A stretch of DNA of 64,000 bases, taken from the NCBI RefSeq assembly GCF_026967985.1, contig NZ_JAPVBJ010000005.1, forward strand, positions 82,564 through 146,563. The letters are read 5' to 3'. The stretch's first letter is position 1; every line of letters starts with the position of its first letter. The translations under genes and the position numbers were made by a program. The stretch is from Modestobacter sp. VKM Ac-2984 (GTDB taxonomy: Bacteria > Actinomycetota > Actinomycetes > Mycobacteriales > Geodermatophilaceae). Positions 40,857 to 54,901 of this stretch are shown in pieces. The notes beneath the pieces are model-generated. The model had not been told where the DNA came from. It saw only the letters and a program-made list of their open reading frames with translations, and did not search any database.

Positions 40857-41573
40857 GTGGCGACCGGGGAACGGGCTGGGGCAGCAGGGACGCGAGCCGG
40901 GCTGGACAAGCGGCCGGCGGAGGTCGCGGCGATGTTCGACCGGGTCGCCGGCCGGTACGACCTGACCAACACGGTGCTCTCCGCCGGGCTGGACGCCGGC
41001 TGGCGTCGGGCCACCCGCGAGGCGCTGGGTGCGCGACCGGGCGCCACCGTGCTCGATGTCGCAGCAGGGACAGGGGTCTCCACCGTCGAGCTCGCCGCCG
41101 GGGGCGTGCGCGCGATCGCCTGCGACTTCTCCCAGGGCATGCTGCGCGCCGGGGCGTCCCGGCCGGTGCCGAAGGTGGCCGGGGACGCGATGGCGCTGCC
41201 GCTGGCCGACGAGAGCGTCGACGGCGTCGTCATCTCCTTCGGCCTGCGCAACGTCGCCGACCCGCAGGCCGCGCTGCGCGAGTTCTCCCGGGTGACCAGG
41301 CCCGGCGGCACGCTGGTGGTCTGCGAGTTCTCCAGCCCCACGTTCGCCCCGTTCCGCACCGTCTACACCGAGTACCTGATGCGGGCCCTGCCGGCGATCG
41401 CCCGGGCGGTGAGCAGCAACCCGGAGGCCTACGTCTACCTGGCCGAGTCGATCCGCGCCTGGCCCCCGCAGCCGGAACTGGCCCGGTGGCTGCAGGGCGC
41501 CGGCTGGGCCGACGTCGCGTGGCGCGACCTGACCGGCGGCGTCGTCGCCCTGCACCGCGGCACCCGGGTCTAG
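40857..41573 (+). CDS. menG: Demethylmenaquinone methyltransferase
   Basis: A 238-residue class I methyltransferase of the UbiE/MenG family, the last step of menaquinone synthesis. [19 protein letters not shown] marks the family; the SAM loop is [40 protein letters not shown] and CEFSSPTF are also typical. The GTG at 40857 is used. The last 50 bp, encoding [15 protein letters not shown] and the stop, are present again with a 6-bp insertion at 43044-43099, marking an insertion after the gene. Confidence 0.94.
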
Positions 41574-41585
41574 GGACGGCTGCTC

Positions 41586-41945
41586 ATGGGCGCTCCCTCG
41601 CGTGGCGCCCAGGTGCTGATCGTCGTCTCGCTCCTGGGCATGTTCGGCCTCGCAGCCTGGCAGGGGCGGCTGGTGTGGGAGATCAGCGGTCCGTCCGTCT
41701 TCGTCCTCGTCTTCTGCCCACCTGCGGCCTGCGCGGCTCTCGCCCTGCGGGTCGAGAGCGTTCGCGGGACGGTGCTGGCCCCTGCGGCGGTCGCTGGGCT
41801 CGGAGTGGTGTCCGTCGCCTGGGCGTTGTTCACGGGCTTGGCCGGCGGGCTGCACCTCCTGGCGCCGGCGCTCCTCCTGCTGGTCGCTGCGGTGGTCTCG
41901 TGGATCGCCAGGCAGCCGAGACCCGTCACCCGGTCACGGGACTGA
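41586..41945 (+). CDS. Small four-helix membrane protein, paralogue of 52163-52525
   Basis: A 119-residue integral membrane protein with about four hydrophobic segments (VLIVVSLLGMFGLAAW, VFVLVFCPPAACAALAL, VLAPAAVAGLGVVSVAWALF, LHLLAPALLLLVAAVVSW). It is clearly paralogous to the gene at 52163-52525, sharing VWEISG, PPAACAALALRVE and RVRGTVLAPA-type blocks at protein and DNA level. It lies 12 bp after menG inside the insert bounded by the duplicated menG end. No known function. Confidence 0.7.
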   Translation: MGAPSRGAQVLIVVSLLGMFGLAAWQGRLVWEISGPSVFVLVFCPPAACAALALRVESVRGTVLAPAAVAGLGVVSVAWALFTGLAGGLHLLAPALLLLVAAVVSWIARQPRPVTRSRD

Positions 41946-41968
41946 TCGAGGGCGCGCCCTTCACCGGC

Positions 41969-42017
41969 CGGACCTCGACCTCCGCCTGTCATCTGACGAG
42001 GCGGAGGTCGAGGTCCG
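41969..42017. terminator. 18-bp inverted repeat after the small membrane protein gene
   Basis: A perfect 18-bp stem (41969-41986 against 42000-42017) with a 13-nt loop. It is probably a terminator, though the unusual stem length would also suit an element end. The remaining gene-free stretch to 42249 contains no clear frame; it presumably holds the promoter of the lipoprotein gene. Confidence 0.55.
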
Positions 42018-42249
42018 CGGAGGTCGAGCGCTTGCGCCGGCAGCACGGGTGGGGGATGAGCACGGACGGTGGTGGAGAACCCGACGTCCTGGTGCATCCG
42101 GAAGCCGACCGTCCCTGGAGGTGACGATCCCGTAACGAGGCGACGGCCCCAGGCTCCCTGCGCCGGTCCGCGGGTACGTCGGAAGTCGCGGTGGACGTGA
42201 AGAGTCCGCCGACATCCGTCAGAACACACCCTCCTTGAGGAGAACGACG

Positions 42250-42852
42250 ATGCGCACCTTCACCCATGGCCGTACCGCGCGCCTGACCACCGCGATCGCC
42301 GCTGCCTCGGCGATCGCGCTGACCGGCTGCAGCGATGACTCGGCCGGCCCCGAGGCTGGGGCCGTCACGACCGACGACCTGACGGGCATCGAGGACCAGC
42401 TGGGAGAGTTCGAGGAGCGGCTCGGGGCGCTGGAGGACAGCGTCGGGGCCGGGGCCGGGGCCGGGGCCGGGGCCGGAGCCGGAGCCGGAGCCGGGGCCGG
42501 TGCCGGTGCTGGCGAAGAGGCAGGCATCGTCGGTCAGCAGGTCACCGTCAGCGCCGAGGTCTCCGAGTTGTTCACGACCACCGATGTCGGCAGCGCATTC
42601 CGGATCGCCGGTGAGAGCGGGCCGTCGATCGCCGTGCTCGCCGCCCAGCCGCCGGAGGGGCTGGACGTGAACGACGTCGTGCAGATCAGCGGGACGGTCG
42701 CGATGATCGACCGGGCCACCTTCGAGCAGGACTTCGGCATCGCTGAGGACGAGCTCTTCGAGGACCCGGACGCCTTCTTCGGCACCGCGGAGGGCCAGCC
42801 GGCCATCGTGGCGAGCGAGGTCGAGGTGCTCCAGGAGCAGGCCGAGGAGTGA
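42250..42852 (+). CDS. Lipoprotein with Gly-Ala repeat linker
   Basis: A 200-residue secreted lipoprotein. It has a twin-basic N-terminus, a hydrophobic signal and lipobox ALTGCS, then an acidic coiled region (IEDQLGEFEERLGALED), a (GA)n linker of about 22 residues from a hexanucleotide repeat, and a C-terminal beta-rich domain of about 100 residues (QQVTVSAEVSELF, then VVQISGTVAMIDR), plausibly OB-like. The ATG at 42250 has GAGGAG 7 bp upstream. It sits in the insert after menG. No function is assigned. Confidence 0.78.
   Translation: MRTFTHGRTARLTTAIAAASAIALTGCSDDSAGPEAGAVTTDDLTGIEDQLGEFEERLGALEDSVGAGAGAGAGAGAGAGAGAGAGAGEEAGIVGQQVTVSAEVSELFTTTDVGSAFRIAGESGPSIAVLAAQPPEGLDVNDVVQISGTVAMIDRATFEQDFGIAEDELFEDPDAFFGTAEGQPAIVASEVEVLQEQAEE
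42445..42510 (+). repeat. GGGGCC hexanucleotide repeat
   Basis: Eleven tandem hexamers: five GGGGCC, three GGAGCC, one GGGGCC, then GGTGCC and GGTGCT. They encode the Gly-Ala linker of the lipoprotein. Length change by slippage would keep the reading frame. The G-tracts could form a G-quadruplex on the coding strand. Confidence 0.92.
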
Positions 42853-43043
42853 CCTGACAGGTCTCGACGACCGTCCGTCCGTGCCGAGGCGCGGACCGAT
42901 CGACGCGGGCCGGGGGCGGTGCCAACGGGCGCGCCGCCACCGGCTCAGCGTGTCTTCGCGGGCAGGTGACGGGTCCCGGGATCGGTGGATGTACCGGCGA
43001 CCGGAGGAGCCGCCTCGCCTGAGTGCCACCGTCCACGGGGCCA

Positions 43044-43099
43044 GCGACCTGACCGGCGGTGGCGGTGTCGTCGCGCTGCACCGCTGCACCCGGGTCTAG
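43044..43099 (+). pseudogene. Remnant copy of the menG 3' end
   Basis: These 56 bp repeat the last 50 bp of menG (41524-41573) with a 6-bp insertion and three substitutions after the first 16 identical bases. The frame is kept: [17 protein letters not shown] and the stop. The TAG stop is shared back-to-back with the phosphotransferase stop on the other strand through the palindrome CTAG, which suggests this is the original menG end, now separated from the gene by 1.5 kb. Confidence 0.85.
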
Positions 43100-43974
43100 C
43101 CGTCGGCCAGCACGGCCGCCAGCACGTCGCCGGCGCGCTGCCGTTCGACCGCGTTGGTCTCTGCTGCACCGGCGTACACGATCACCGCCTTCCACAGCGC
43201 CCAGGCGCGGCCGCGGGCCCAGGTGCCCTCGTCCAGGTCAAGGCCGGCCCGGAAGGCGGCCCGGCTCCGGTCGGAGAAGAGCGTCCAGGCGACGACGAGG
43301 TCGCACGCCGGGTCGCCCACCCCGCAGGTGCCGAAGTCCAGCACCGCGGCCAGCTGGCCGTCCCGCACGAGCAGGTTGCCGGCCGCGACGTCGCCGTGGA
43401 ACCAGCGTGGCGGCCGGTCCCAGGAGGTCGCGGTCGCAGCCGCCCAGACGGCGGTGGCCACCCGGCCGTCGATCGCGTCGCCGAGCGCCTCGATCGCCGC
43501 GTGCGTCTCGGTCGCGTAGTGGCTGAGCGGGGCGCCGCGGAACCAGCTGTGCGACCCGGCCGGTGGCCCGTCGGTCGGGTCCACCTGCTGGAGGGCGGCG
43601 AGGAAGCCGGCCAGGTCGGTGGCGAACGTGCTGAGGTCAGCGACCGGCGCAGCGGATGCGTCGGTCCCCTCCAGCCAGCGGTACACCGACCACGGCCACG
43701 GGAAGCCCGCCCCGGGAACCCCCTGGCCGAGCGGCACGGGGATCGGCAGCGGCAGCCGCGGCGCCAGGCGAGGGAGCCAGGTCTGTTCCTTGTCCACCTG
43801 GCCGGCGTAGGCCGCCGCGCTCGGCAGCCGGACGAGCATCTCCGCACCGAGCCGGAACGCGCGGTTGTCCCAGCCGCCCGGCCGCACCGGGACGACCGGG
43901 AGGTGCGCCCACTCCGGGAACTGGCTCTCGACCAGCCGGCGCACCAGCGGGACGTCGATGCGCGGAGTGCTCAT
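43096..43974 (-). CDS. Aminoglycoside phosphotransferase-family kinase
   Basis: A 292-residue protein-kinase-like phosphotransferase. It has a catalytic loop RWFHGDVAAGNLLV (about 203-216) and a metal-binding AVLDFGTCGVGDPACDL (about 222-238). The N-lobe contains RLGAEMLVRLPS with the ATP lysine replaced by the family-typical arrangement. Members include antibiotic kinases and many metabolite kinases; a resistance role cannot be claimed. The ATG at 43974 is 52 bp downstream of ugd, on the same strand. The stop overlaps the menG remnant. Confidence 0.85.
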   Translation of the reverse strand: MSTPRIDVPLVRRLVESQFPEWAHLPVVPVRPGGWDNRAFRLGAEMLVRLPSAAAYAGQVDKEQTWLPRLAPRLPLPIPVPLGQGVPGAGFPWPWSVYRWLEGTDASAAPVADLSTFATDLAGFLAALQQVDPTDGPPAGSHSWFRGAPLSHYATETHAAIEALGDAIDGRVATAVWAAATATSWDRPPRWFHGDVAAGNLLVRDGQLAAVLDFGTCGVGDPACDLVVAWTLFSDRSRAAFRAGLDLDEGTWARGRAWALWKAVIVYAGAAETNAVERQRAGDVLAAVLADG

Positions 43975-44026: not shown

Positions 44027-45346
44027 TCAGCCGGCGCGGCGGCCCAGCGCGCGGTAGGTCCAGCCCGCGGCGACCCAGCGGTCACGGTCGAGTGCGTTGC
44101 GGCCGTCCAGCATCCGCTTCTGCCCGACGATCTTCCCGAAGGACACCGGGTCCAGGTCCCGGTACTGCTGCCACTCGGTGAGCACGAGGACCGCGTCGGC
44201 GCGGTCGGCGGCCTCCTCGGGGGTGTCCACGGCATCCAGCTGGGGCCAGCTGCGGCGGATGTTGTCCCCGGCCGCCGGGTCGGTCACGCGCACCGCGGCA
44301 CCCTGCAGCTGCAGCTGCGCGGCGACATTCAGTGCCGGGGAGTCGCGGATGTCGTCGCTGTTGGGCTTGAACGCCGCTCCCAGCACCGCCACCCGCTTGC
44401 CGACCAGCGACCCGTCGCAGACCTCACGGGCCAGGTCCACCATCCGGATCCGGCGGCGCATGTTGATGTTGTCGACCTCGCGCAGGAACGTCAGCGCCTG
44501 GTCGGCACCGAGCTCACCGGCGCGGGCCATGAACGCCCGGATGTCCTTGGGCAGACAGCCACCGCCGAAGCCGAGGCCGGCGTTGAGGAACTTGCGGCCG
44601 ATCCGGTCGTCGTGCCCGATCGCATCCGCCAACTGCTTCACATCGGCGCCGGTGGCCTCGCACAGCTCGGCCATCGCGTTGATGAAGGAGATCTTCGTGG
44701 CCAGGAACGAGTTCGCCGCCGTCTTCACCATCTCCGCCGTCGCGTAGTCGGTGACCACCTGCGGAGTACCGGCCGCCACGATCGAGGCATAGACCTCGTC
44801 CAGCATCGCCCGCGCCGTCTCACCGTCGGCGCCGGCCGGCAGGCCGTAGACCAGCCGGTCCGGGTGCAGCGTGTCCTGCACCGCGAAGCCCTCCCGCAGG
44901 AACTCCGGGTTCCAGGCCAGCATCGCCCCCGGCACCTTGCCCTCGACCATCTCGGCCAGCCTCGTTGCGGTGCCCACCGGGACCGTGGACTTCCCGGCGA
45001 CCAGCTCCCCCGGCTCCAGCACGTCCAGCAGCGACTCGACCGCGGCCTCCACGAAGCGCATGTCCGCGGCGTACTCCCCGCGCCGCTGCGGCGTCCCGAC
45101 GCAGACGAAGTACACCGCCGACCCGGCGGCGTCGGCCATGTCGGAGCTGAAGCGCAGCCGCCCGGACTCCAGCGAGCTGCTCAGCAGCTCCTCGAACCCC
45201 GGCTCGTAGAACGGCGCCTTCGCCCGCTGCAGTGCGTGGACCTTGGACTGGTCGACGTCGACGCCGACGACGTCGTGCCCGAGCTCGGCCATCGACGCCG
45301 CGTGCACGGCGCCCAAGTAGCCACAACCGATGACGGCGATCTTCAT
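44027..45346 (-). CDS. ugd: UDP-glucose 6-dehydrogenase
   Basis: A 439-residue enzyme oxidising UDP-glucose to UDP-glucuronate. N-terminal NAD loop VIGCGYLGAVHAASMAELGH, conserved FVCVGTPQ and NPEFLREGFAV, catalytic cysteine in GLGFGGGCLPKDIRAF (about residue 265), and C-terminal LGAAFKPNSDDIRDSPAL. GDP-mannose dehydrogenases are close relatives, but the motif wording favours the UDP-glucose type. It is divergent from the GT2 polysaccharide synthase gene, for which it can supply the sugar donor. Confidence 0.93.
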   Translation of the reverse strand: MKIAVIGCGYLGAVHAASMAELGHDVVGVDVDQSKVHALQRAKAPFYEPGFEELLSSSLESGRLRFSSDMADAAGSAVYFVCVGTPQRRGEYAADMRFVEAAVESLLDVLEPGELVAGKSTVPVGTATRLAEMVEGKVPGAMLAWNPEFLREGFAVQDTLHPDRLVYGLPAGADGETARAMLDEVYASIVAAGTPQVVTDYATAEMVKTAANSFLATKISFINAMAELCEATGADVKQLADAIGHDDRIGRKFLNAGLGFGGGCLPKDIRAFMARAGELGADQALTFLREVDNINMRRRIRMVDLAREVCDGSLVGKRVAVLGAAFKPNSDDIRDSPALNVAAQLQLQGAAVRVTDPAAGDNIRRSWPQLDAVDTPEEAADRADAVLVLTEWQQYRDLDPVSFGKIVGQKRMLDGRNALDRDRWVAAGWTYRALGRRAG

Positions 45347-45689
45347 GGGTCTCCTGGTGTCGAGGGGGCGTCGGATGCCGGCACACGTGTCCTGCCGCTG
45401 GGCGGCACGGACGCTGCGGCCGCCGGCTCCGAACGCACGCTAGGGCTACCCAGCGTGACTGCGCCACTTGGGCGATCATGGGCATCCTCACCCAGACGCG
45501 CTGCTGATCACCCCTTGCAAGTGAAAAGCGACGGTCTGCGACGTCACCGAGAGTTAACACACTCTTCTGCATGACCTCCGGCGGAGTGGGCACCCGACCG
45601 CCCGACATGCGCCCTGATCGGCACTGCTGGAGTGGACTGCCGGCTGGTCGGGAGTGCTCCACAGTCCTGAGCACAGGGAGCTGCCGAGA
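45347..45689. other. Divergent promoter region of the exopolysaccharide locus
   Basis: A 343-bp gap without a gene between divergent ugd and the GT2 gene. It contains an unusually A/T-rich patch around 45518-45570 (including AAGTGAAAAGCG and GAGAGTTAACACACTC) that stands out in this genome and is a likely promoter or regulator-binding zone. I cannot assign specific -10 and -35 elements or an operator. Confidence 0.4.
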
Positions 45690-46949
45690 GTGGTCGACGT
45701 CCTGACCTTCCTCACCGAGAACTGGTACGCCGCGCTACCGATCGGAGTCGTCGGCGTCCTGTCCTGGTCGATCTGGCTGATCCGCAAGATCATGTCCGCC
45801 GGCTACCGGTCGTTGGTGAACGACTTCCGAACCACGACCTCCGTGGTCGTCCCGTCGTTCCGGGAGGACCCGGACGTGCTCGACCGGTGCCTGGACACCT
45901 GGCTCGGGCAGGACCCGACGGAGGTCATCGTCGTCCTGGACGTCGAGGACGCGGAGGCGTTCGCCCGCCTCACCGCCCGCGAGGACCCGCGGCTGACGGT
46001 GATCTCGTTCGCGCACGAGGGCAAGCGGTCGGCGCTCGGCGTCGGCATCCGAGCAGCCACCAGTGAGGTCGTGGTCCTCTGCGACTCGGACACGAACTGG
46101 CAGTCGGGCCTGCTCGAGGCCGTCCAGATGCCGTTCGTCGACCCCGAGGTCGGCGCGGTGGGCACCCGGCAGAACGTGCACCTGCCCACCTCGAACATCT
46201 GGCGTCGCGTCGCGGACTGGATCATCGACCTCCGCTACCTGGACTACGTGCCGGCCACCTCGCGGGCCGGCGCGGTCGTGTGCGTCTCGGGCCGGACGGC
46301 GGCCTACCGGCGCGCCGCCGTGCTCCCGGTCCTGGAGAACCTCGAACACGAGTTCTTCCTGGGGCGGCGGTGCATCGCCGGTGACGACGGCCGGCTCACC
46401 TGGCTGGTGCTGGCCAGCGGCTACAAGACGGTGCACCAGGACAGCGCCCGTGCGCTGTCCATGTTCCCCAGCACGTTCCGTGCCTTCTGCAAGCAGCGGA
46501 TCCGCTGGAGCCGCAACTCCTACCGCTGCTACCTGACCGCGGCGTGGAAGGGCTGGCTGTGGCGGGTGCCGCTGGTCAGTCAGATCACCGTCCTGCAGAT
46601 CCTGTTCACGCCGGTGACGATGTTCGCGGCCGTCTTCTACGTCGTCGCCTCGAGCTTCAGCGACCGCGGCTGGATCGCCCTGGCGCTGTCGCTGACCTGG
46701 GTGTTCGTCGGCCGTGCGATCCGCAGCATCAGCCACCTGCGGCGTCGGCCGAGCGACATCGCGATCCTGCCGCTCGTCGCCCTGGTCATCGTCCTGGTGG
46801 CCCTGCCGATCAAGACCTACGCCCTGCTCACCATGAACAAGCAGGGCTGGCTCACCCGGCATGCAGGCCTCACCGGCGGCGAGGGCCAGGACGAGGCCAG
46901 CCTCGTCAGCACCTCCTCGGCCGCCCCGGTCGCGGCGGTGACCGCGTGA
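45690..46949 (+). CDS. Family 2 processive glycosyltransferase, hyaluronan-synthase-like
   Basis: A 419-residue membrane glycosyltransferase. An N-terminal helix (about 13-33) is followed by the catalytic domain with SVVVPSFREDP, VVLCDSDTNW (DxD), the acceptor block AGDDGRLTWLVLASGYKTV, and the processive QxxRW motif in CKQRIRWSRNSYR (about 275), then four C-terminal helices. The GDDxxLT and QRIRW wording is close to hyaluronan, chitin and NodC-type synthases that make and export the polymer. The GTG at 45690 has GGGAG upstream. It is coupled to the beta-helix gene by a 4-bp overlap. Confidence 0.88.
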   Translation: MVDVLTFLTENWYAALPIGVVGVLSWSIWLIRKIMSAGYRSLVNDFRTTTSVVVPSFREDPDVLDRCLDTWLGQDPTEVIVVLDVEDAEAFARLTAREDPRLTVISFAHEGKRSALGVGIRAATSEVVVLCDSDTNWQSGLLEAVQMPFVDPEVGAVGTRQNVHLPTSNIWRRVADWIIDLRYLDYVPATSRAGAVVCVSGRTAAYRRAAVLPVLENLEHEFFLGRRCIAGDDGRLTWLVLASGYKTVHQDSARALSMFPSTFRAFCKQRIRWSRNSYRCYLTAAWKGWLWRVPLVSQITVLQILFTPVTMFAAVFYVVASSFSDRGWIALALSLTWVFVGRAIRSISHLRRRPSDIAILPLVALVIVLVALPIKTYALLTMNKQGWLTRHAGLTGGEGQDEASLVSTSSAAPVAAVTA

Positions 46950-48661
46950 GCGGGCGGGAGGTGGGCACGGTGACCCGGCTGCTCACCGTCAGCGCAGCGG
47001 TCGCCGCCGTGCTGGGCGTGGCCGTCGTCTGGGGCCCGCTGGAGGGCACCGACCCGTCGGCACAGGCCGGGACGACCGTGGCGCCGGCCGCCGCCGCGGC
47101 CCCGGTGTCCAGCGTCGCGGCCGAGCGGCAGAGCGCCATCCTCACCGCCGAGGACGAGCGGTTGCTGACGATCGTCGGCTCCATCCGGCCGGGTTCGCCG
47201 CCCTACGTGCAGGAGCACGACGGCACCCGGACGCTCGTGCTGACCGCCGGTGGCCTGGCGTACGGGCTGTCGGACCTCATCGAGCTGGGCGCCGCCGAGG
47301 TCCAGCCGGACGGGGTCGTGTTGCTGACCGAGCACGTGTTCGTGGCCCCCGGCGCGCGGCTGATCATCGATGCCCCGGGAACGACCCTCCGGCTGCGCAG
47401 CGGGATCTCGGGCTTCGTCTCCCTGGTCGCCTGGAAGGCCGACATGACCCTCGCCGGTGCTGACGGGCAGCCGCTCACGGTGACCAGCTGGAGCAGCAGG
47501 AAGCGCGGCCCGGACCCCAGCCCCGTCGACGGCCGCGCCTACGTGCGCGACGCGAGCGGTGCGATGGAGCTGCGCCACGTGACCGTCAGCGACCTGGGCT
47601 TCTGGTCCGGCCGCACCAGCGGGGTCGCGTGGACGGGCAGCTCCAGCACGGAGGCGACCGGCGCCATCATGGGCTCGACGTTCCGTGACAACCACTACGG
47701 CGCCTTCGCCTCCAAGGCCGAGGAGCTGACCGTGATCGGCTCGGACTTCTCCGACAACGCCGTCGACGGGCTGTCCCTGCACCGCAGCACCGCGCAGACG
47801 GTGATCGAGGACTCGACGGCGCGCGGCAACGGGCGGCACGGCTTCTCCGCCGACCAGGGCTCGGAGTCGGTGACCTACACGGACGTGACAGCGGAGAAGA
47901 ACGCCGCCTACGGCATCTTCTTCAGCGGCACCCCGCTGTCGGACGGCCGGTCCGCCGGCGGCGCCTCGCTGCGCGCCTACGGCGAGGTCCACGTCGACGG
48001 CGGGGTCTTCCGGGAGAACGGCAAGGCCGGGCTGCGCGTGGTCGACGGCGACGACGTGACCATCACCGGCACCCGGGTCGCCGACAACACCGACGGCATC
48101 GTGCTGGTGGGGACGGCGGCGCCCACGGCGGTGCAGGGCAGCACCGTCTCCGGCAACGACCGGTTCGGGATCACCGTGAGCGGGGGAGAGGCCGCCGTGA
48201 CCGGCAACAAGGTGTCCGGCTCCGAGACCGCCATCCGCGTGCGGGACGCAGCCGTGGACGTCGTCGACAACAACGTCCGTGAGGCGACCTCGCACGCCAT
48301 CTCGGTGGTCGGTGCCTCGGCCGGCTCCACCGTCGAGGAGAACACCATCGGCGGCCGGGGGCCCAGCGGGCTGGACGTCTACCGGGTGGCCGAGGGCGTG
48401 TCGATCGACCTCGCCACCAACGACGTCGGGGGCTGGACCCGGGACCGGGACAACTGGACGTACTGGTCCACGTTCATCCCCAACCACCCGATGCTGCTCC
48501 TCTGGGTCCTGGTCCTGGGCGTGCCCGTGCTGCTCGGCATCCGGGCCCGGCGCTCAGCGGTCGCGCCCGGCACCAAGCCGTACGGGGACGACATCCGCCG
48601 GGAGTGGCAGCCGCCGGCCCGGGTCGAGGTCGGCCGCCGCACCGCCGGGGGCCGGTCCTGA
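46946..48661 (+). CDS. Membrane-anchored right-handed beta-helix protein
   Basis: A 571-residue extracytoplasmic protein: an N-terminal signal/anchor (about 8-30), an Ala-rich linker, a parallel beta-helix domain (about 140-500) with repeated N/D-G-turn rungs (GSTFRDNHYGAFA, GSDFSDNAVDGLSL, GGVFRENGKAGLRV, GSTVSGNDRFGITV), and a C-terminal helix HPMLLLWVLVLGVPVLLGI with a basic cytoplasmic tail. The fold is shared with NosD, polysaccharide lyases and mannuronan epimerases. Coupling to the GT2 gene suggests it acts on the nascent polymer. The GTG at 46946 is used; GTG 46961 or 46970 are possible. Confidence 0.85.
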   Translation: MSGREVGTVTRLLTVSAAVAAVLGVAVVWGPLEGTDPSAQAGTTVAPAAAAAPVSSVAAERQSAILTAEDERLLTIVGSIRPGSPPYVQEHDGTRTLVLTAGGLAYGLSDLIELGAAEVQPDGVVLLTEHVFVAPGARLIIDAPGTTLRLRSGISGFVSLVAWKADMTLAGADGQPLTVTSWSSRKRGPDPSPVDGRAYVRDASGAMELRHVTVSDLGFWSGRTSGVAWTGSSSTEATGAIMGSTFRDNHYGAFASKAEELTVIGSDFSDNAVDGLSLHRSTAQTVIEDSTARGNGRHGFSADQGSESVTYTDVTAEKNAAYGIFFSGTPLSDGRSAGGASLRAYGEVHVDGGVFRENGKAGLRVVDGDDVTITGTRVADNTDGIVLVGTAAPTAVQGSTVSGNDRFGITVSGGEAAVTGNKVSGSETAIRVRDAAVDVVDNNVREATSHAISVVGASAGSTVEENTIGGRGPSGLDVYRVAEGVSIDLATNDVGGWTRDRDNWTYWSTFIPNHPMLLLWVLVLGVPVLLGIRARRSAVAPGTKPYGDDIRREWQPPARVEVGRRTAGGRS

Positions 48662-48714
48662 CCCGGCGGCGGGCGCCGGGGGGTGGCGGCGTGGCGACGG
48701 CCTACGGTGGCCGG

Positions 48715-49779
48715 ATGCGCCGACTCGTCCCGCTGCTCGGGGCCCTGGTCCTGCTCGGCGCCTGCTCCTCCGCCGACCGCGACGACCCGGAGGCGGCGCC
48801 GGCGCCCGCCGACACCGCCGCGCCCGCTCCGTCGGGGGCGTCCACGCCGGCCACGCCCCCTCCAGCAGCGGTCGCCGGGTGCGAGGGCGCCCAGGTCGTC
48901 GACGTCAGCACCGGGGCGCAGCTGCAGCGCGCGCTGGACGACGCCACGGCCGGGCAGGTCATCCGGCTGGCCGACGGCCGGTACGAGGGGAACTTCGTGG
49001 CGACCGCGGAGGCCACGGTGGACGCCCCGATCCACCTGTGCGGCAGCCGGGGCGCCGTCCTCGACGGCGGTGAGATCGACGGCAACTACACCCTGCACCT
49101 CAGCGGTGCGGACCACTGGCGGGTCACGGGGCTGACGGTGACCGGTGGGCAGAAGGGCGTGATGGTCGACGCGGGGGTCGGCAACCGGATCGAGGGCCTC
49201 CTGGTGACCTCGATGGGCGACGAGGCGATCCACCTGCGCACCCACAGCACCGACAACGTCGTCGTGGGCAACACCATCCGGGACACCGGGCTCCGCAAAC
49301 CCCAGTTCGGCGAGGGCATCTACGTGGGCACGGCCGAGAGCAACTGGTGTCAGATCAGTGACTGCGAGCCGGACCGCAGCGATCGCAACGTCGTCGATGG
49401 CAACGACATCGCCGGGACGACCGCAGAGGCGGTGGACATCAAGGAGGGCACGACCGGCGGCATGCTCCGCGGCAACAGCTTCGACGGCTCGGACATGGTC
49501 GAGGCCGACTCCTGGGTCGACGTCAAGGGCAACGACTGGACGGTCGCGGACAACACCGGCACCGCGGCGCCGGTGGACGGCTTCCAGGTGCACGAGGTGG
49601 TCGACGGCTGGGGCCGGGGCAACGTCTTCACCGGCAACACCGGGTCGGTCGACGGGGACGGCTACATGATCAACGTCGCCGGTCCCCGGACGATCCGGGA
49701 GAACAACCGGGTCAGCTGCGACAACGACGCCGGTGGCGCCGACCAGGGGATCAGCAACATCGACTGCGGCAGGGCCTGA
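48715..49779 (+). CDS. Beta-helix lipoprotein, polysaccharide lyase-like
   Basis: A 354-residue lipoprotein with lipobox LLGACS, a Pro/Ala linker to about residue 55, and a right-handed beta-helix from about 65 to the end. Rungs include ADGRYEGNFVAT, LCGSRGAVLDGGEIDG, NRIEGLLVTSMGDEAIHLRTH, NVVDGNDIAGTTAEAVDIKEG and NVFTGNTGSVDGDGYMI. Four cysteines may form disulfides. The layout resembles secreted pectate-lyase-fold proteins (DUF1565/NosD-like). It is third in the GT2 operon, 53 bp after the anchored beta-helix gene and before a strong terminator. Substrate unknown. Confidence 0.83.
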   Translation: MRRLVPLLGALVLLGACSSADRDDPEAAPAPADTAAPAPSGASTPATPPPAAVAGCEGAQVVDVSTGAQLQRALDDATAGQVIRLADGRYEGNFVATAEATVDAPIHLCGSRGAVLDGGEIDGNYTLHLSGADHWRVTGLTVTGGQKGVMVDAGVGNRIEGLLVTSMGDEAIHLRTHSTDNVVVGNTIRDTGLRKPQFGEGIYVGTAESNWCQISDCEPDRSDRNVVDGNDIAGTTAEAVDIKEGTTGGMLRGNSFDGSDMVEADSWVDVKGNDWTVADNTGTAAPVDGFQVHEVVDGWGRGNVFTGNTGSVDGDGYMINVAGPRTIRENNRVSCDNDAGGADQGISNIDCGRA

Positions 49780-49784
49780 CCGCG

Positions 49785-49815
49785 CCGGGCGGGGTCGGTG
49801 GCCGACCCCGCCCGG
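49785..49815 (+). terminator. Terminator of the exopolysaccharide operon
   Basis: A perfect 14-bp stem (49785-49798 against 49802-49815) with a 3-nt loop TGG starts 5 bp after the beta-helix lipoprotein stop. This is one of the strongest hairpins in the window. Confidence 0.8.
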
Positions 49816-49980
49816 ACGGCGCCTCCGGGAGCCCGCTGCCCGGCTCGCGCGCCCCACCAGGAACACCCCACCCACCTGGGTGGACACGGGTGCAGGGTCG
49901 TTGACCCAGCCGGGTCCGATCACGATGCTGAGCCGCCGGACGACGGTCGTCGTCCCCTCCCGGGAAGGCGTGCTGCATCG

Positions 49981-50901
49981 ATGAGCCACCTCTGGGGGGC
50001 AGGTGGATCTGCCCCCGTCGCCTGGCCCGCAGCCGCCATGGGGGAGCCGCGGGGCCAGGCACCGGCGCGTCGCCGTCCCGGAGCTGCGCTGACGGCCGCA
50101 GTCCTGGCCCTCGTCTCCGCCGGGCTGCTCCTGCTGTCACTGGTGACCGTGCTGGCCGAGGCGGCCACCGGGCTGGGGACCGCCTCCGCCGAGCGGTCGT
50201 CGACGATCGTCGGCGTCGTCCTGACCGCGGCGCTGACCGCGCTGCTCCTGCTGGGCGCCGTCTGCCTGCTGCGGGGCGCCGGGCGCACGCTCCTGCTGGC
50301 GGGCAGCTGGCTGGAGGTGGGCGTCACCCTGGTCACCATCGCCTGGTGGTCGGGCGAGGGCCGCTGGACGGAGGAGTCCTCGCCCCTGGTCGCCGGAGCA
50401 GGCCTCCTGCTCGCCCTTCTACTGGCGCTGGTGCAGACGGGGTCGGCGCACCACCGGTCGGTCGGCCGGTGGCTGGCGGGCTCCGCCGAGGCGCCACGGG
50501 TCTTCCCCGCCGGTCGCACCGGCGGCCGGCTGCTCATCGCCGTGCTCGCCCCGGTCGCCACGCTCGCCCTGGCCACGGTCGTCGTGGTCGCGGTCGCCGG
50601 GGACCCGGGCGCCGCGGCGCTCGCTGACCGGCTCCACGCGACCGGTGTCGACGTGCGTTCCTCGGGTGAGCTCCTCCGCCTGCCGACCGAGCCACCGGAG
50701 CCCGGCTGGCCGGGCTGGGCGGTGGATCTCGCCCCGGGCGCGGAGGCCTGCTTCGCCGGGTCGATGGCTGCCTGCGACGACCTGTACTGGGAGAGCGTCG
50801 TGGGGGGCGTCCACGAGCAGTACGGCTCGACCTGCGGTGGCCGGCTCACCGAGGAGGTCGAGGGCGGCTGTGTGACGTTGTCGGGTCGCCGGATCAACTG
50901 A
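49981..50901 (+). CDS. Membrane protein with secreted cysteine domain, paralogue A
   Basis: A 306-residue protein with about five hydrophobic segments (about 33-55, 70-90, 100-120, 125-145 and 180-205) and a C-terminal extracytoplasmic domain. That domain holds the pattern CFAGSMAACDDLYWES, YGSTCGGRL and GGCVTL: four cysteines that could form two disulfides. The same domain ends the next gene's product. Such C-terminal cysteine domains are frequent in Geodermatophilaceae-like genomes, but I know no function. The ATG at 49981 is used; the upstream ribosome-binding site is weak. Confidence 0.68.
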   Translation: MSHLWGAGGSAPVAWPAAAMGEPRGQAPARRRPGAALTAAVLALVSAGLLLLSLVTVLAEAATGLGTASAERSSTIVGVVLTAALTALLLLGAVCLLRGAGRTLLLAGSWLEVGVTLVTIAWWSGEGRWTEESSPLVAGAGLLLALLLALVQTGSAHHRSVGRWLAGSAEAPRVFPAGRTGGRLLIAVLAPVATLALATVVVVAVAGDPGAAALADRLHATGVDVRSSGELLRLPTEPPEPGWPGWAVDLAPGAEACFAGSMAACDDLYWESVVGGVHEQYGSTCGGRLTEEVEGGCVTLSGRRIN

Positions 50902-51007
50902 TCGGGTGACCTCGGGCCCCACCGGTTTGACCCGCAGATGATCACTGACCACCCTGATCAGCCGGACGGCGGTGGCGCCGTCGACGAGGAACGGGGTTCG
51001 CACGCCG

Positions 51008-52102
51008 ATGAGTCACGCGTACCGCCCAGCAGGTGACGGTGGAGCGGGCGACCAGCCTTCGCGGGACCGGTCGGGTGACCAGGCCCCGGGGACCGGGACG
51101 CCGGCGTCCGGTGCAGCGCCGATCGGAGGGTCGCCGTCCGGGCCGCCTCCGGTGGCACCGCCGCCCAGGATCCCCGTGCGGCGTCCGGCGGCGGCGGTGG
51201 CGGCTGCGGTGTTCGGGTTCCAGGCAGCTGCAGCAGCTCTGTCGGTGGTGCTCCTCGCCGACTCCGTGGCCGTGGTGCTGGGCGTGCCCGAGGGCGGTGA
51301 CCGGGCCTGGTGGCTCGCCGGGCAGCTGCTGAGCTGTGCGCTCGCCGCCCTCCTGCTCTTCGGCGGCGTGCAGCTGATCCGTGGGGTCGGGCGGCTCTTC
51401 GTGCTGGTGGGCACCCTGTCGGAGCTGGTGTTGGTCCTGGGTGGGCTCGTCTGGGCCCTGGTCCGGTGGCCGGAGGCCGAGGACGTCGAGACCGGTCTGC
51501 CCGGCGTCGCCGGCGACCTCGTCGACCTGGTCAGCGGGTGGCTGATCGCCTCCGTAGCGCTGTACCTCGGGTGGTTGGTCCTGCGGGTGTGGCTGGTCCT
51601 GGCGCCGTCGGTGGGCCGCTGGCTGCACGCTGAGCGCATCACTGGCCAGCGGCCGGACTGGTCGCCGGAGCAGGGAGGACGGACCAGCCCGCCCGTCCGG
51701 AGCACCGGACGGGCCGGCTGGGCGGTGTTCCTGCCGATCGGCGCGCTCGCCGCGGTGACGGTGCTGCTGGGCCTGTTGGGCCGGTCGCTGCCCCCCGGGC
51801 TGCTGGGCGACGCCGAGGTCGACGCAGGCGCCAGCTACCAGGGCGACAGCCCGTGGGGGCTGGAGTTCTACCGGGGCGGCGAGCCGTTGGCCCCGCCGTC
51901 CGCCGGTGACGAGCCGTACCTCCGCGCGGCGGACGCCGATGCACGCAGCTGCTACGCCGGCGACATGGCGGCCTGCGACGCCCTCTACTTCGCCTCCCCG
52001 GTCGGGGACGTCTACGAGTGGTACGGGTCCTCCTGCGCCGGTCGGCTGGACCACGGGAGCGCTGGCGGCTGCGTCGACGAGCTGGGCCTCATGGTCGACT
52101 GA
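51008..52102 (+). CDS. Membrane protein with secreted cysteine domain, paralogue B
   Basis: A 364-residue relative of the preceding gene: a longer Pro/Gly-rich cytoplasmic N-terminus (to about 75), about five membrane segments, and a C-terminal domain with CYAGDMAACDALYFAS, YGSSCAGRL and GGCVDEL. Spacing of the four cysteines equals that in paralogue A, so the two arose by duplication. It starts 106 bp after paralogue A. Function unknown; the conserved secreted domain suggests recognition or protection outside the membrane, which is inference. Confidence 0.7.
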   Translation: MSHAYRPAGDGGAGDQPSRDRSGDQAPGTGTPASGAAPIGGSPSGPPPVAPPPRIPVRRPAAAVAAAVFGFQAAAAALSVVLLADSVAVVLGVPEGGDRAWWLAGQLLSCALAALLLFGGVQLIRGVGRLFVLVGTLSELVLVLGGLVWALVRWPEAEDVETGLPGVAGDLVDLVSGWLIASVALYLGWLVLRVWLVLAPSVGRWLHAERITGQRPDWSPEQGGRTSPPVRSTGRAGWAVFLPIGALAAVTVLLGLLGRSLPPGLLGDAEVDAGASYQGDSPWGLEFYRGGEPLAPPSAGDEPYLRAADADARSCYAGDMAACDALYFASPVGDVYEWYGSSCAGRLDHGSAGGCVDELGLMVD

Positions 52103-52162
52103 CCTGCGACGTCGTCGTCTGGACGCGACCTCGCCGCGGACCGAGAACGAGGAGGTGGTGAT

Positions 52163-52525
52163 GTGGTTCGCCAAGCCGTCCCGTCTCCGGGAGCCCGGGC
52201 GCTGATCGTCGTCTCACTCCTGGGCGTCCTCGGCCTCGCGGTCTGGCTGGGTCCCCGGGTGTGGGAGATCAGCGGGTCGGCCGTCTTCTTCCTCGTCTTC
52301 GGCCCACCTGCGGCCTGCGCGGCGCTCGCCCTGCGGGTCGAGCGCGTCCGCGGGACGGTGCTGGCCCCTGCGGTCGTCGCTGCGCTCGGGCTGGTGTCCG
52401 CCGCGTGGGGGCTGGTCACGTTGCTGAGTGGTGGGCTGTACCTCCTGGTACCTGCGCTCCTGCTGGTGTCCGCCGCCGTGGTCTCGTGGGTCGACAGACG
52501 GCCGGACGCCTCGTGGACGCGCTGA
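52163..52525 (+). CDS. Small four-helix membrane protein, paralogue of 41586-41945
   Basis: A 120-residue membrane protein with the same four hydrophobic segments and shared blocks (ALIVVSLLGVLGLAVW, VWEISGSAVFFLVFGPPAA, GTVLAPAVVAALGLVSAAW) as the gene in the menG insert, with high DNA identity over about 250 bp. The GTG at 52163 has GGAGG at 52151-52155. A 14-codon frame (52161-52205) overlaps its start and might couple translation. It follows paralogue B in the same direction. Function unknown. Confidence 0.68.
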   Translation: MVRQAVPSPGARALIVVSLLGVLGLAVWLGPRVWEISGSAVFFLVFGPPAACAALALRVERVRGTVLAPAVVAALGLVSAAWGLVTLLSGGLYLLVPALLLVSAAVVSWVDRRPDASWTR

Positions 52526-52680
52526 CCCGGACGCCGAGTGTCGAGATGTCGACGCCTGGTGCCCGGACCAGACGTGCACAGCTCGTCACCCGGTGAGCGC
52601 CGCCCGGGCCGGCCGGCGAGGTGTTGCGCCCGGAGCGGACGGCGTTCCCTGTCCGCCTCGGGAGGAGCAGGCTCCGGGGC

Positions 52681-52833
52681 ATGACGATCCCGCCCACCCC
52701 CGAGCCCCAGCCGCCCTCGCCGTCCCCGTCGCCGACCGACCCGATCTCCCCGCCGGCCCCGGCGCCCGTCCCGGGCCCGGACCCGACCGACCCCACCGCG
52801 CCGCCGCCCGCCCCGGCCCCCGGGCCGCTGTGA
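52681..52833 (+). CDS. Possible 50-residue proline-rich peptide
   Basis: An ATG at 52681 opens a 50-residue frame consisting almost only of Pro with Ser, Ala, Asp and Thr (PPTPEPQPPSPSPSPTDP and onward). A GGGAGG lies about 15 bp upstream, too far for a strong site. It could be a small surface or linker peptide, or a chance C-rich frame. It sits in the 562-bp stretch between the small membrane protein gene and nuoA. Confidence 0.35.
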   Translation: MTIPPTPEPQPPSPSPSPTDPISPPAPAPVPGPDPTDPTAPPPAPAPGPL

Positions 52834-52861
52834 GCCGCTGACCTGCGCTCTCACGGCCTGT

Positions 52862-52899
52862 CAGGACCCCCGGTGTGAACTCGATCACCGGGGGTCCTG
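52862..52899 (+). terminator. Hairpin upstream of the nuo promoter
   Basis: A perfect 14-bp stem (52862-52875 against 52886-52899) with a 10-nt loop, followed by a T/G-rich run. It insulates nuoA from the accessory genes upstream. Confidence 0.7.
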
Positions 52900-52941
52900 G
52901 TGTTCCGACACCCCTTCGGCATAGGCTTCGGCCACTCGACC

Positions 52942-52959
52942 TTGTGAACCAGTTCACAA
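52942..52959. promoter_or_regulatory. Predicted Rex operator 1 upstream of nuoA
   Basis: TTGTGAACCAGTTCACAA is a perfect match to the Rex consensus TTGTGAAnnnnTTCACAA. It lies 129 bp before the nuoA start. Streptomyces Rex is known to control nuoA-N, so Rex encoded at 16426 probably represses this operon when NADH is low. Confidence 0.88.
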
Positions 52960-52964
52960 GCACA

Positions 52965-52982
52965 GGGTGAAGCAGTTCACAA
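52965..52982. promoter_or_regulatory. Predicted Rex operator 2 upstream of nuoA
   Basis: GGGTGAAGCAGTTCACAA has a perfect right half-site and 5 of 7 matches on the left. It is 23 bp downstream of operator 1, about two helical turns, so two Rex dimers could bind the same face cooperatively. Confidence 0.7.
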
Positions 52983-53087
52983 GGGGTCGCCCGGTCGTCG
53001 GATGTGAGCGGAGGTCGTCGCAGTGGTCCGCCCGAGGTCGTGCACGCCCCCCACCGTCCCGCGGAACGCCTGTCACGGGGGCTGCTG

Positions 53088-53450
53088 ATGCTGTCGAACT
53101 ACGTGCCCCTGGTCGGGCTCTTCGTGCTCGCCGCGGGCTTCGCGCTCTTCTCGGTCACCGCAGCACCGTTCATCGGCCCGCGCCGCTACAACAGCGCGAA
53201 GGTGCAGGCCTACGAGTGCGGGATCGAACCGGTCGACCAGCCGCTCACCGGCGGACGGATCCCGGTCAAGTACTTCCTCACCGCGATGCTCTTCATCGTC
53301 TTCGACATCGAGATCGTCTTCCTCTACCCGTGGGCCGTCGCCAACGACGCGCTGGGCCTGTGGGGCCTCGGCGCGATGGCGGTCTTCATCGGCACCGTCT
53401 TCATCGCCTTCGTCTACGAGTGGCGCCGCGGGGGGCTGGAGTGGGACTGA
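53088..53450 (+). CDS. nuoA: NADH-quinone oxidoreductase subunit A
   Basis: A 120-residue membrane subunit of complex I with three helices. The conserved loop KVQAYECGIEPVDQPL and KYFLTAMLFIVFDIEIVFLYPWA are diagnostic. The ATG at 53088 gives the normal family length; an in-frame GTG at 53004 would add an unconserved basic extension. First gene of the nuo operon, downstream of two Rex operators. Confidence 0.94.
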   Translation: MLSNYVPLVGLFVLAAGFALFSVTAAPFIGPRRYNSAKVQAYECGIEPVDQPLTGGRIPVKYFLTAMLFIVFDIEIVFLYPWAVANDALGLWGLGAMAVFIGTVFIAFVYEWRRGGLEWD

Positions 53451-53452
53451 TC

Positions 53453-53497
53453 GACACAGGACCGACCGACACAGGACCGACGGACACGAGACCGACG
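53453..53497 (+). repeat. Three 15-bp tandem repeats between nuoA and nuoB
   Basis: Units at 53453, 53468 and 53483 follow GACACAGGACCGACS; the third differs at two or three positions. They fill most of the 66-bp nuoA-nuoB spacer, in an operon otherwise spaced by overlaps. They carry no ribosome-binding site themselves; nuoB's lies after them. Confidence 0.85.
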
Positions 53498-53516
53498 ACG
53501 GACGGGGGGCGCTGAG

Positions 53517-54185
53517 ATGGGCCTGGAGGAGAAGCTCCCGAGCGGCGTCCTGCTGACCAGCGTCGAGAAGCTCGTCAACTGGACCCGCAAGTCCTCGCTC
53601 TGGCCGGCCACGTTCGGCCTGGCCTGCTGTGCGATCGAGATGATGGCGTCCGGCGCCGGCCGCTACGACCTGGCCCGCTTCGGCATGGAGGTCTTCCGCG
53701 CCTCCCCGCGCCAGGCCGACCTGATGATCGTGGCGGGGCGGGTCAGCCAGAAGATGGCCCCGGTCCTCCGGCAGATCTACGACCAGATGCCCGAGCCGCG
53801 GTACGTGCTCGCCATGGGCGTCTGCGCCAGCTCCGGCGGCATGTTCAACAACTACGCGATCGTGCAGGGCGTCGACCACATCGTCCCGGTGGACATGTAC
53901 CTGCCCGGCTGCCCGCCGCGGCCGGAGATGCTCACCGACGCCATCCTCAAGCTGCACCACAAGATCCAGCACCAGCCGCTGGGCGCCAAGCGCGCCCGGG
54001 AGCAGGCCGCCGCCCGCGCCAACGGCACGGCACCGGAGCTGCACCTGGCGATGCCCTCCAGCGTCCGGGCGGACCCGGCGGCGAAGCGCGCCTACGAGCA
54101 GGCCGCCGCCGAGGGCCGCACCGGCCAGTTCGCCATCGAGCAGCGCGGAGGCAACGCCGTCGCCCTGCCCGGAGCGGACCGATGA
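53517..54185 (+). CDS. nuoB: NADH-quinone oxidoreductase subunit B
   Basis: A 222-residue peripheral subunit that carries cluster N2, the last iron-sulfur centre before quinone. The ligands are in [11 protein letters not shown] (two adjacent cysteines), [12 protein letters not shown] and [13 protein letters not shown]-terminal Ala/Arg-rich extension of about 50 residues is beyond the usual fold and typical of actinobacterial NuoB. It overlaps nuoC by 4 bp. Confidence 0.96.
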
Positions 54186-54901
54186 GCGACGAGGCCGGCT
54201 TCGGGGCCGCGACCGAGCCCGGCGGGGGCTTCCGCAAGGGCGCCTTCGGCGTCACCGGCAGCGGCGACACCTCCGGCTTCGGCGGCCTCGTCCGGGTCGA
54301 GCCCGGCGGCGCCGTCGCGCTGCACACCACCGACCGGCCCTACGGCGGCTGGTTCGACGAGGTCACCGACGCGCTGATCGACGCCGTCGGCGCGGCCACG
54401 TACGCCGCCGCCGTCCACCGGGTCCTGGTCGACCGGGGCGAGATCACGTACTTCGTCGCCCGCGAGCACCTGCTCACCCTGGTCCAGGCGCTGCGGGACG
54501 ACGAGTCGCTGCGCTTCGAGCTGTGCAGCAGCGTCTCCGGCGTCGACTACGCCGACAGCGGCGGCCCGGCCGCGACGCCCGAGCGGCCCCGGCTGCACGT
54601 CGTCTACCACCTGACCTCGATGACCTACCGCCGCCGGGTCCGGCTCGAGGTGGCCGTCACCGCCGAGGACCCGCACGTCCCGTCGGTCAGCTCCGTCTAC
54701 CCCACGGCGGACTGGCACGAGCGGGAGGCCTGGGACATGTTCGGCATCGTCTTCGACGGCCACCCGGCGCTGACCCGGATCCTCATGCCCGACGACTGGG
54801 AGGGCCACCCCCAGCGCAAGGACTACCCGCTCGGCGGCGTCCCGGTCGAGTACAAGGGCGCCCAGATCCCCCCGCCCGACGAGCGCCGGAGCTACCGATG
54901 A
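54182..54901 (+). CDS. nuoC: NADH-quinone oxidoreductase subunit C
   Basis: A 239-residue subunit of the connecting module. The signature is in [20 protein letters not shown] (about 180-199), followed by [20 protein letters not shown] Gly-rich N-terminal stretch of about 40 residues precedes the conserved fold. Overlaps nuoB and nuoD by 4 bp each. Confidence 0.96.

Follow-up and report, generated by a model that had tools for sequence, protein, structure and literature searches.

The window analysed here is a stretch of 64,000 nucleotides from the soil actinobacterium Modestobacter sp. VKM Ac-2984, and lies in contig 17 of a genome of 4,557,465 bases in 21 contigs. It holds menG, a convergent phosphotransferase gene (aph), a gene cluster, two genes for related membrane proteins (mem1 and mem2) and the nuo genes (table 1). 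The last 50 nucleotides of menG (41524-41573) are present again at 43044-43099, as the preliminary description had indicated. Between the two copies, 47 of the 50 aligned bases are identical; the distal copy has 3 substitutions and 6 extra bases. A self-comparison of the window scored the pair at 83.9% over 56 columns (E = 1.2e-10). Both copies close with an in-frame TAG, and the distal one, also as described, overlaps the minus-strand TAG of aph within a CTAG (43096-43099).

Table 1. Features between menG and the nuo genes, with positions in the window. The alpha and beta layouts are defined in the text.
Feature	Position	Strand	Description	Evidence
menG	40857..41573	+	demethylmenaquinone methyltransferase; conserved left flank	Pfam Ubie_methyltran, E 2.1e-52
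Proximal repeat	41524-41573	+	menG tail	sequence comparison
menG-mem linker	41574..41585	+	12 nt; alpha junction	G018 differs at 1 base, G002 has 2 differences
mem1	41586..41945	+	membrane protein of 119 aa; both ends of alpha type, central tract in common with mem2	
Inverted repeat	41969..42017	.	19-nt perfect arms; putative two-way terminator hairpin	fold z -5.0
Lipoprotein gene	42250..42852	+	lipobox-like LTGC (by eye), Gly-Ala linker, predicted OB-fold C-terminal domain	
Insert tail	42857..43043	+		22 genomes of the same genus, none with a match at E 1e-8
Distal menG 3'-end copy	43044..43099	+	probable remnant of the beta layout	sequence comparison
aph	43096..43974	-	phosphotransferase of the APH family, which in the beta layout converges with menG	Pfam APH, E 1.3e-43
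Beta-layout cluster	44027..52102		ugd (-), GT2 (+), two beta-helix proteins (+), two proteins without Pfam hit (+)	
mem2	52163..52525	+	beta-type paralogue of mem1	site patterns
Conserved right flank	52532..54901	+	start of nuo-side homology, then nuoA, nuoB, nuoC	alignments with G017, G002 and G006 resume at 52532-52535

In 53 distinct relatives, the DNA behind menG gave no second copy of its tail above 23 nt; the stretches searched extend 0.9-10 kb, and a more distant copy would therefore escape detection. The 53 comprise 21 same-genus genomes and 39 named loci of the family, with 7 genomes common to both sets. One of the 22 same-genus relatives (G014) was left out, its contig ending inside menG, and for a few others the search used the final aligned stretch in place of the exact end of the gene. 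We also looked for the same duplication at other genes, as had been suggested: at E up to 1e-3, none of 14 other gene ends of the window pairs with a stretch of more than 22 nt.

It had been proposed that menG and aph once met tail-to-tail, and an empty site was predicted in relatives. Both the layout and the empty site exist. The aph gene adjoins menG in 6 of the 22 same-genus relatives (G017, G019, G022, G007, G016 and G015), and the first five share the CTAG exactly. The sixth, a draft metagenome assembly, was left out of the CTAG count because its aph, as read, has a broken frame and the match stops 7 nt past the menG stop. We call this tail-to-tail arrangement beta; in G019 it continues with a ugd/glycosyltransferase cluster, a mem gene and nuoA. 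G019 thus keeps the rest of the region, in the order menG, aph, ugd, cluster, mem2, nuoA, with 88% nucleotide identity over 6.9 kb of the cluster (window 45258-52117). The link across ugd is presumed, because a contig break falls in the middle of this gene (contigs C10 and C11 both end inside it) and ugd is multicopy, with a second copy in the window's own genome at C19. Given this link, G019 would have the layout of the window minus 1.5 kb. In G017, aph is followed by a short gap and then by the nuo-side flank. The product of menG is 96-99% identical in amino acids in G017, G018, G002, G006 and G019, and that of aph 89% in G017 and 81% in G019 over residues 1-280. The cluster itself looks in part like a polysaccharide-type one (44027-49779), with ugd, a NodC-like GT2 and two beta-helix proteins, one weakly like AlgG; its 45.7-49.8 kb part also matches G011, G012, G014 and G015 at 73-78%. 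The products of 49798-50901 and 50972-52102 have C-terminal ends that are alike by eye, and look like tandem paralogues.

A second arrangement, which we call alpha, has the order menG-mem-nuoA. G018 has a single mem gene behind menG, and the nuo flank comes next; G002 keeps the linker plus a 47-nt remnant of the 3' part of mem. Neither mem nor aph lies between menG and the nuo side in G006, and mem- and aph-type genes are absent at E 1e-3 behind menG in the other same-genus relatives. Because G018 has menG-mem with nearly the same linker, and G002 a remnant of it, the left third of the 1.5 kb is this alternative layout of the locus and not a free-standing piece. The preliminary description had read the 1.5 kb as a single accessory insert. 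It is not a single element: the left third belongs to alpha and the lipoprotein gene is a separate component. The mem1 paralogue at 52163, outside the 1.5 kb, belongs to beta. The window accordingly has alpha (menG-mem) in front of beta (menG tail and aph, cluster, mem), with an OB-fold lipoprotein as third component. Relatives carry alpha or beta one at a time; the window has one behind the other, and the 50-base leftover of menG is the seam.

Two conserved core genes thus bound a variable spot. Of the 39 named family loci, 37 yielded a nuoA, which lies about 0.9 to 7.2 kb from menG, versus 11.5 kb in the window, and the content differs among G002, G006, G017, G018 and G019. On the right side, the TCGA-rich start of the nuo-side homology was considered as a dispersed recombination repeat and rejected, the best other match to 52525-52660 in the own genome being 33 nt (E = 0.002). 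Upstream of nuoA there is a small proline-rich open reading frame (52681-52833), also seen by eye in G018, and two inverted sites of the TTGTGAA/TTCACAA type (52942-52984) that resemble Rex operators.

The direct repeats and the empty site could also be the marks of a site-specific or transposable element that targets and duplicates the menG 3' end. Such an element would have its recombinase inside, and insert ORFs of 60 aa or more match no recombinase family, in agreement with the integrase and transposase reported as missing; 9 further ORFs overlapping the insert have no Pfam match at E up to 0.01, and the scanned cluster genes belong to other families or none. We found no plasmid or phage DNA match to the insert and no full-length second copy of it in 23 genomes, where the many partial matches mostly concern the Gly-Ala repeat. 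In addition, its left part occurs in G018 without a second tail. An integrative element at the menG end was rejected as a candidate for want of a recombinase and of plasmid or phage matches, and we regard any site-specific or transposable element at this place as highly improbable. Site-specific integration, one of two mechanisms offered by the preliminary description, is supported by nothing beyond the repeat. The suggested contrast in composition, which we ran on GC3, does not single out the insert either: mem1 (0.875), the lipoprotein gene (0.900) and mem2 (0.868) are slightly below menF, menG and nuoA-C (0.946-0.992), but two genes of the beta cluster are equally low (p49 0.872, p50 0.897).

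The inverted repeat had been given as 18 bp. It is present and longer, with 19-nt perfect arms (41969-41987 and 41999-42017), and starts 23 nt past the mem1 stop. The region folds far better than its shuffles, and the repeat is most likely a terminator. A known RNA family was rejected, since the two miRNA matches are far below the gathering score.

The lipoprotein gene does carry the GGGGCC repeat described earlier, which encodes the Gly-Ala linker. No Pfam or NCBIfam family matches the product, and the one match to a solved structure by sequence is not convincing (E = 0.41). An AlphaFold2 model (mean pLDDT 80.3, pTM 0.65) matches OB-fold domains of aspartyl-tRNA synthetases, RPA and OBodies, with query TM of about 0.5-0.6 and a best E of 1.5e-4, so that the C-terminal domain is predicted to be an OB-fold. 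This domain has matches in 28 of 112 family genomes, the own genome included. Identities reach 57-66% (amino acids) at 13 loci of other genera and 41-51% within the own genus, where the best relative has 51% and relatives are found in 8 of 22 genomes; the other lipoprotein of the own genome has about 50%. In several genomes of genus g2 (L200, L202, L203, L205, L206) the domain has two homologues on opposite strands, separated by about 1.7-1.9 kb; one is 63-66% identical to that of the window and the other 41-53%. Neither the membrane protein nor the lipoprotein matches a named family of known function.

The preliminary description had noted that mem1 has a paralogue at 52163, and the two are 83% identical over 315 nt. 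mem1 has no Pfam match above the cut-off, and a scan of genome contigs with it found no relative; the other mem copies of the own genome have 83% and 72% DNA identity to it. We aligned mem1, mem2, the mem gene of G018 and the mem2 of G019, dropped the gap columns, and classified the informative sites. The pairing of mem1 with G018 and of mem2 with G019 is supported by 17 sites (O), that of mem1 with mem2 by 18 (P) and the third pairing by 2 (X). Along the alignment, columns 1-38 have 4 O and 1 P, columns 98-230 have 17 P, 1 O and 1 X, and columns 243-362 have 12 O and 1 X. The O and P sites form 7 runs (permutation p = 6e-5; the two X sites were omitted from the runs test). Identity between mem1 and mem2 reaches 88.2% in the central part (columns 81-232), against 76.1% at one end and 71.0% at the other. 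The genes are thus mosaic. By the site patterns mem1 is of alpha type and mem2 of beta type, and the middle is most simply read as a gene-conversion tract between alleles of different origin. The approximate coordinates of the tract are 41674-41806 and 52260-52392.

The tree of menF and menG is (G006,((G002,G019),(G018,(window,G017)))). Support is 1.0 for the six together, 0.879 for the five without G006, 0.995 for G002 with G019, 1.0 for G018, the window and G017, and 0.107 for the window with G017. Alpha and beta each occur in both sister clades, and this distribution fits either exchange between strains or an old stacked locus followed by several losses. According to the latter, the ancestor of G002, G019, G018, G017 and the window had menG, mem, the lipoprotein gene, the menG tail meeting aph, the cluster, mem and nuoA, and its descendants lost parts, between the menG tails in G019 and G017 and around the mem copies in G018 and G002. 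Deletion between direct repeats is simple, yet about four separate losses are required, and among the 22 relatives there is neither a lipoprotein of the window type (best 51%, in 8 of 22) nor the insert tail. A simple deletion product of mem1 and mem2 is moreover ruled out for the mem of G018: its 3' end is of alpha type, with extra 3' flank, and it is not a hybrid of the two. The age of the tail bears on the same question. The four-fold divergence between the window and G017 is 0.095 (menFG) and 0.043 (nuoABC); for G018 the values are 0.084 and 0.078, and for G002 and G019 they lie at 0.148-0.181. By a rough calculation, 3 or fewer substitutions in the 50 bases have a probability of 0.58-0.72 for the younger split and 0.27 at a divergence of 0.15, so that the tail seems to fit the younger split slightly better and is compatible with the older one. 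Overall, we consider an ancestral stack with repeated losses rather unlikely, though by no means negligible.

We favour, as moderately probable, recombination of alpha-type donor DNA with a resident beta locus, the left join being homologous and lying in menG, and the right re-entry illegitimate, as in homology-facilitated illegitimate recombination (HFIR), where one end is homologous and the other illegitimate (PMC3240628), or in an equivalent process. The incoming DNA would have carried an alpha-type menG end and mem, with the lipoprotein segment behind. Having joined by homology in menG, it would have re-entered the resident menG, without long homology, 50 nt before the stop, which would leave a complete menG on the left and a 50-nt old stump beside aph. 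The middle tract would afterwards have been exchanged between the mem copies by gene conversion. A one-step join of this type accounts for the alpha junction and for a menG that is complete, with its stump beside an intact aph. It is also the other mechanism offered earlier, recombination with a donor menG, and is favoured because G018 has menG-mem as its layout, with an almost identical linker, and G002 keeps a remnant of it. We infer the order of events, the donor, the chemistry of the joins and the arrival of the lipoprotein gene in the same step.

Several observations bear on the two joins. The menG-mem junction of the left join occurs in relatives, and the identity profile has no clear import tract inside menG; between 41250 and 41499 identity is higher with G017 (97.2%) than with G018 (95.6%), which counts against the reading. 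At the right join, the DNA left of 43044 is unlike menG (judged partly by eye) and unmatched in the 22 relatives. In none of the genomes searched did we see mem and the same lipoprotein together, or 42857-43043, and this counts against the reading, whose donor is thus hypothetical. The genera holding the 57-66% lipoprotein loci also have homologues of 40-53%, another point against it. G018 is ruled out as the direct donor: mem1 and its mem are 74.4% identical, while for mem3 the presumed orthologues in the same three strains share 89.9-92.5%. For the same reason the alpha of G018 and that of the window are not simply the same recent copy. The lipoprotein gene may have come separately, in which case more than one event is needed. 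The own genome encodes two Ku genes and one Competence (ComEC-type) domain, which permit, but do not demonstrate, an HFIR-type mechanism. A short terminal duplication at the seam is also what template switching at the replication fork would produce, if it copied menG-mem, the lipoprotein locus and the menG tail again, with no incoming linear DNA. Since the own genome has no second source of the segment (mem copies of 83% and 72% in DNA, a lipoprotein of about 50% in amino acids), switching would still need a foreign template, and we find it improbable.

Imprecise recombination, of a type described before from bacteria, is the most likely cause of the stacking. As in HFIR as described in PMC3240628, one end would be homologous and the other illegitimate, which is deduced here from the sequence only. 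A process akin to HFIR, which is rare relative to ordinary homologous recombination, has been proposed for the type VI effector-immunity arrays of Vibrio cholerae, where a new module enters beside an upstream anchor that is conserved, pushes older genes downstream and can leave an old 3' end behind, as we propose for the window (PMC5361080). The anchor there lies in a secretion cluster, with effector-immunity genes as cargo; at our locus it is menG, a housekeeping gene, and a membrane protein and a lipoprotein form the cargo. Integrases are missing from many hotspots, whose flanking core genes recombine more often (PMC5635113). The locus resembles those described there in its variable content between core genes, the lack of a recombinase in the insert and its alternative layouts, but two layouts are here stacked and not replaced, and our case is one locus in one genus. 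Short direct repeats also bound small variable segments, 10-18% of which are so flanked in the species covered by PMC2884548; those repeats are mostly below 30 bp, whereas here the repeat is 50 bp and a gene end. In the literature on transfer and recombination in the genus we judged nothing to be related, and we found none on gene-end duplication of this kind.

What distinguishes the locus is that its seam can be read. The parental layouts, the empty site and the stump are all visible among close relatives, and the direction and kind of the event can therefore be argued from sequence. It is conceivable, if doubtful, that in these Ku-bearing actinobacteria end joining regularly completes a one-sided strand invasion at a core gene. 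Alternative layouts would then pile up behind menG and not replace one another, and short stumps would record each addition. Should such stumps prove common in the Geodermatophilaceae, of which only the menG locus was examined here, they would let stacking be counted against replacement.
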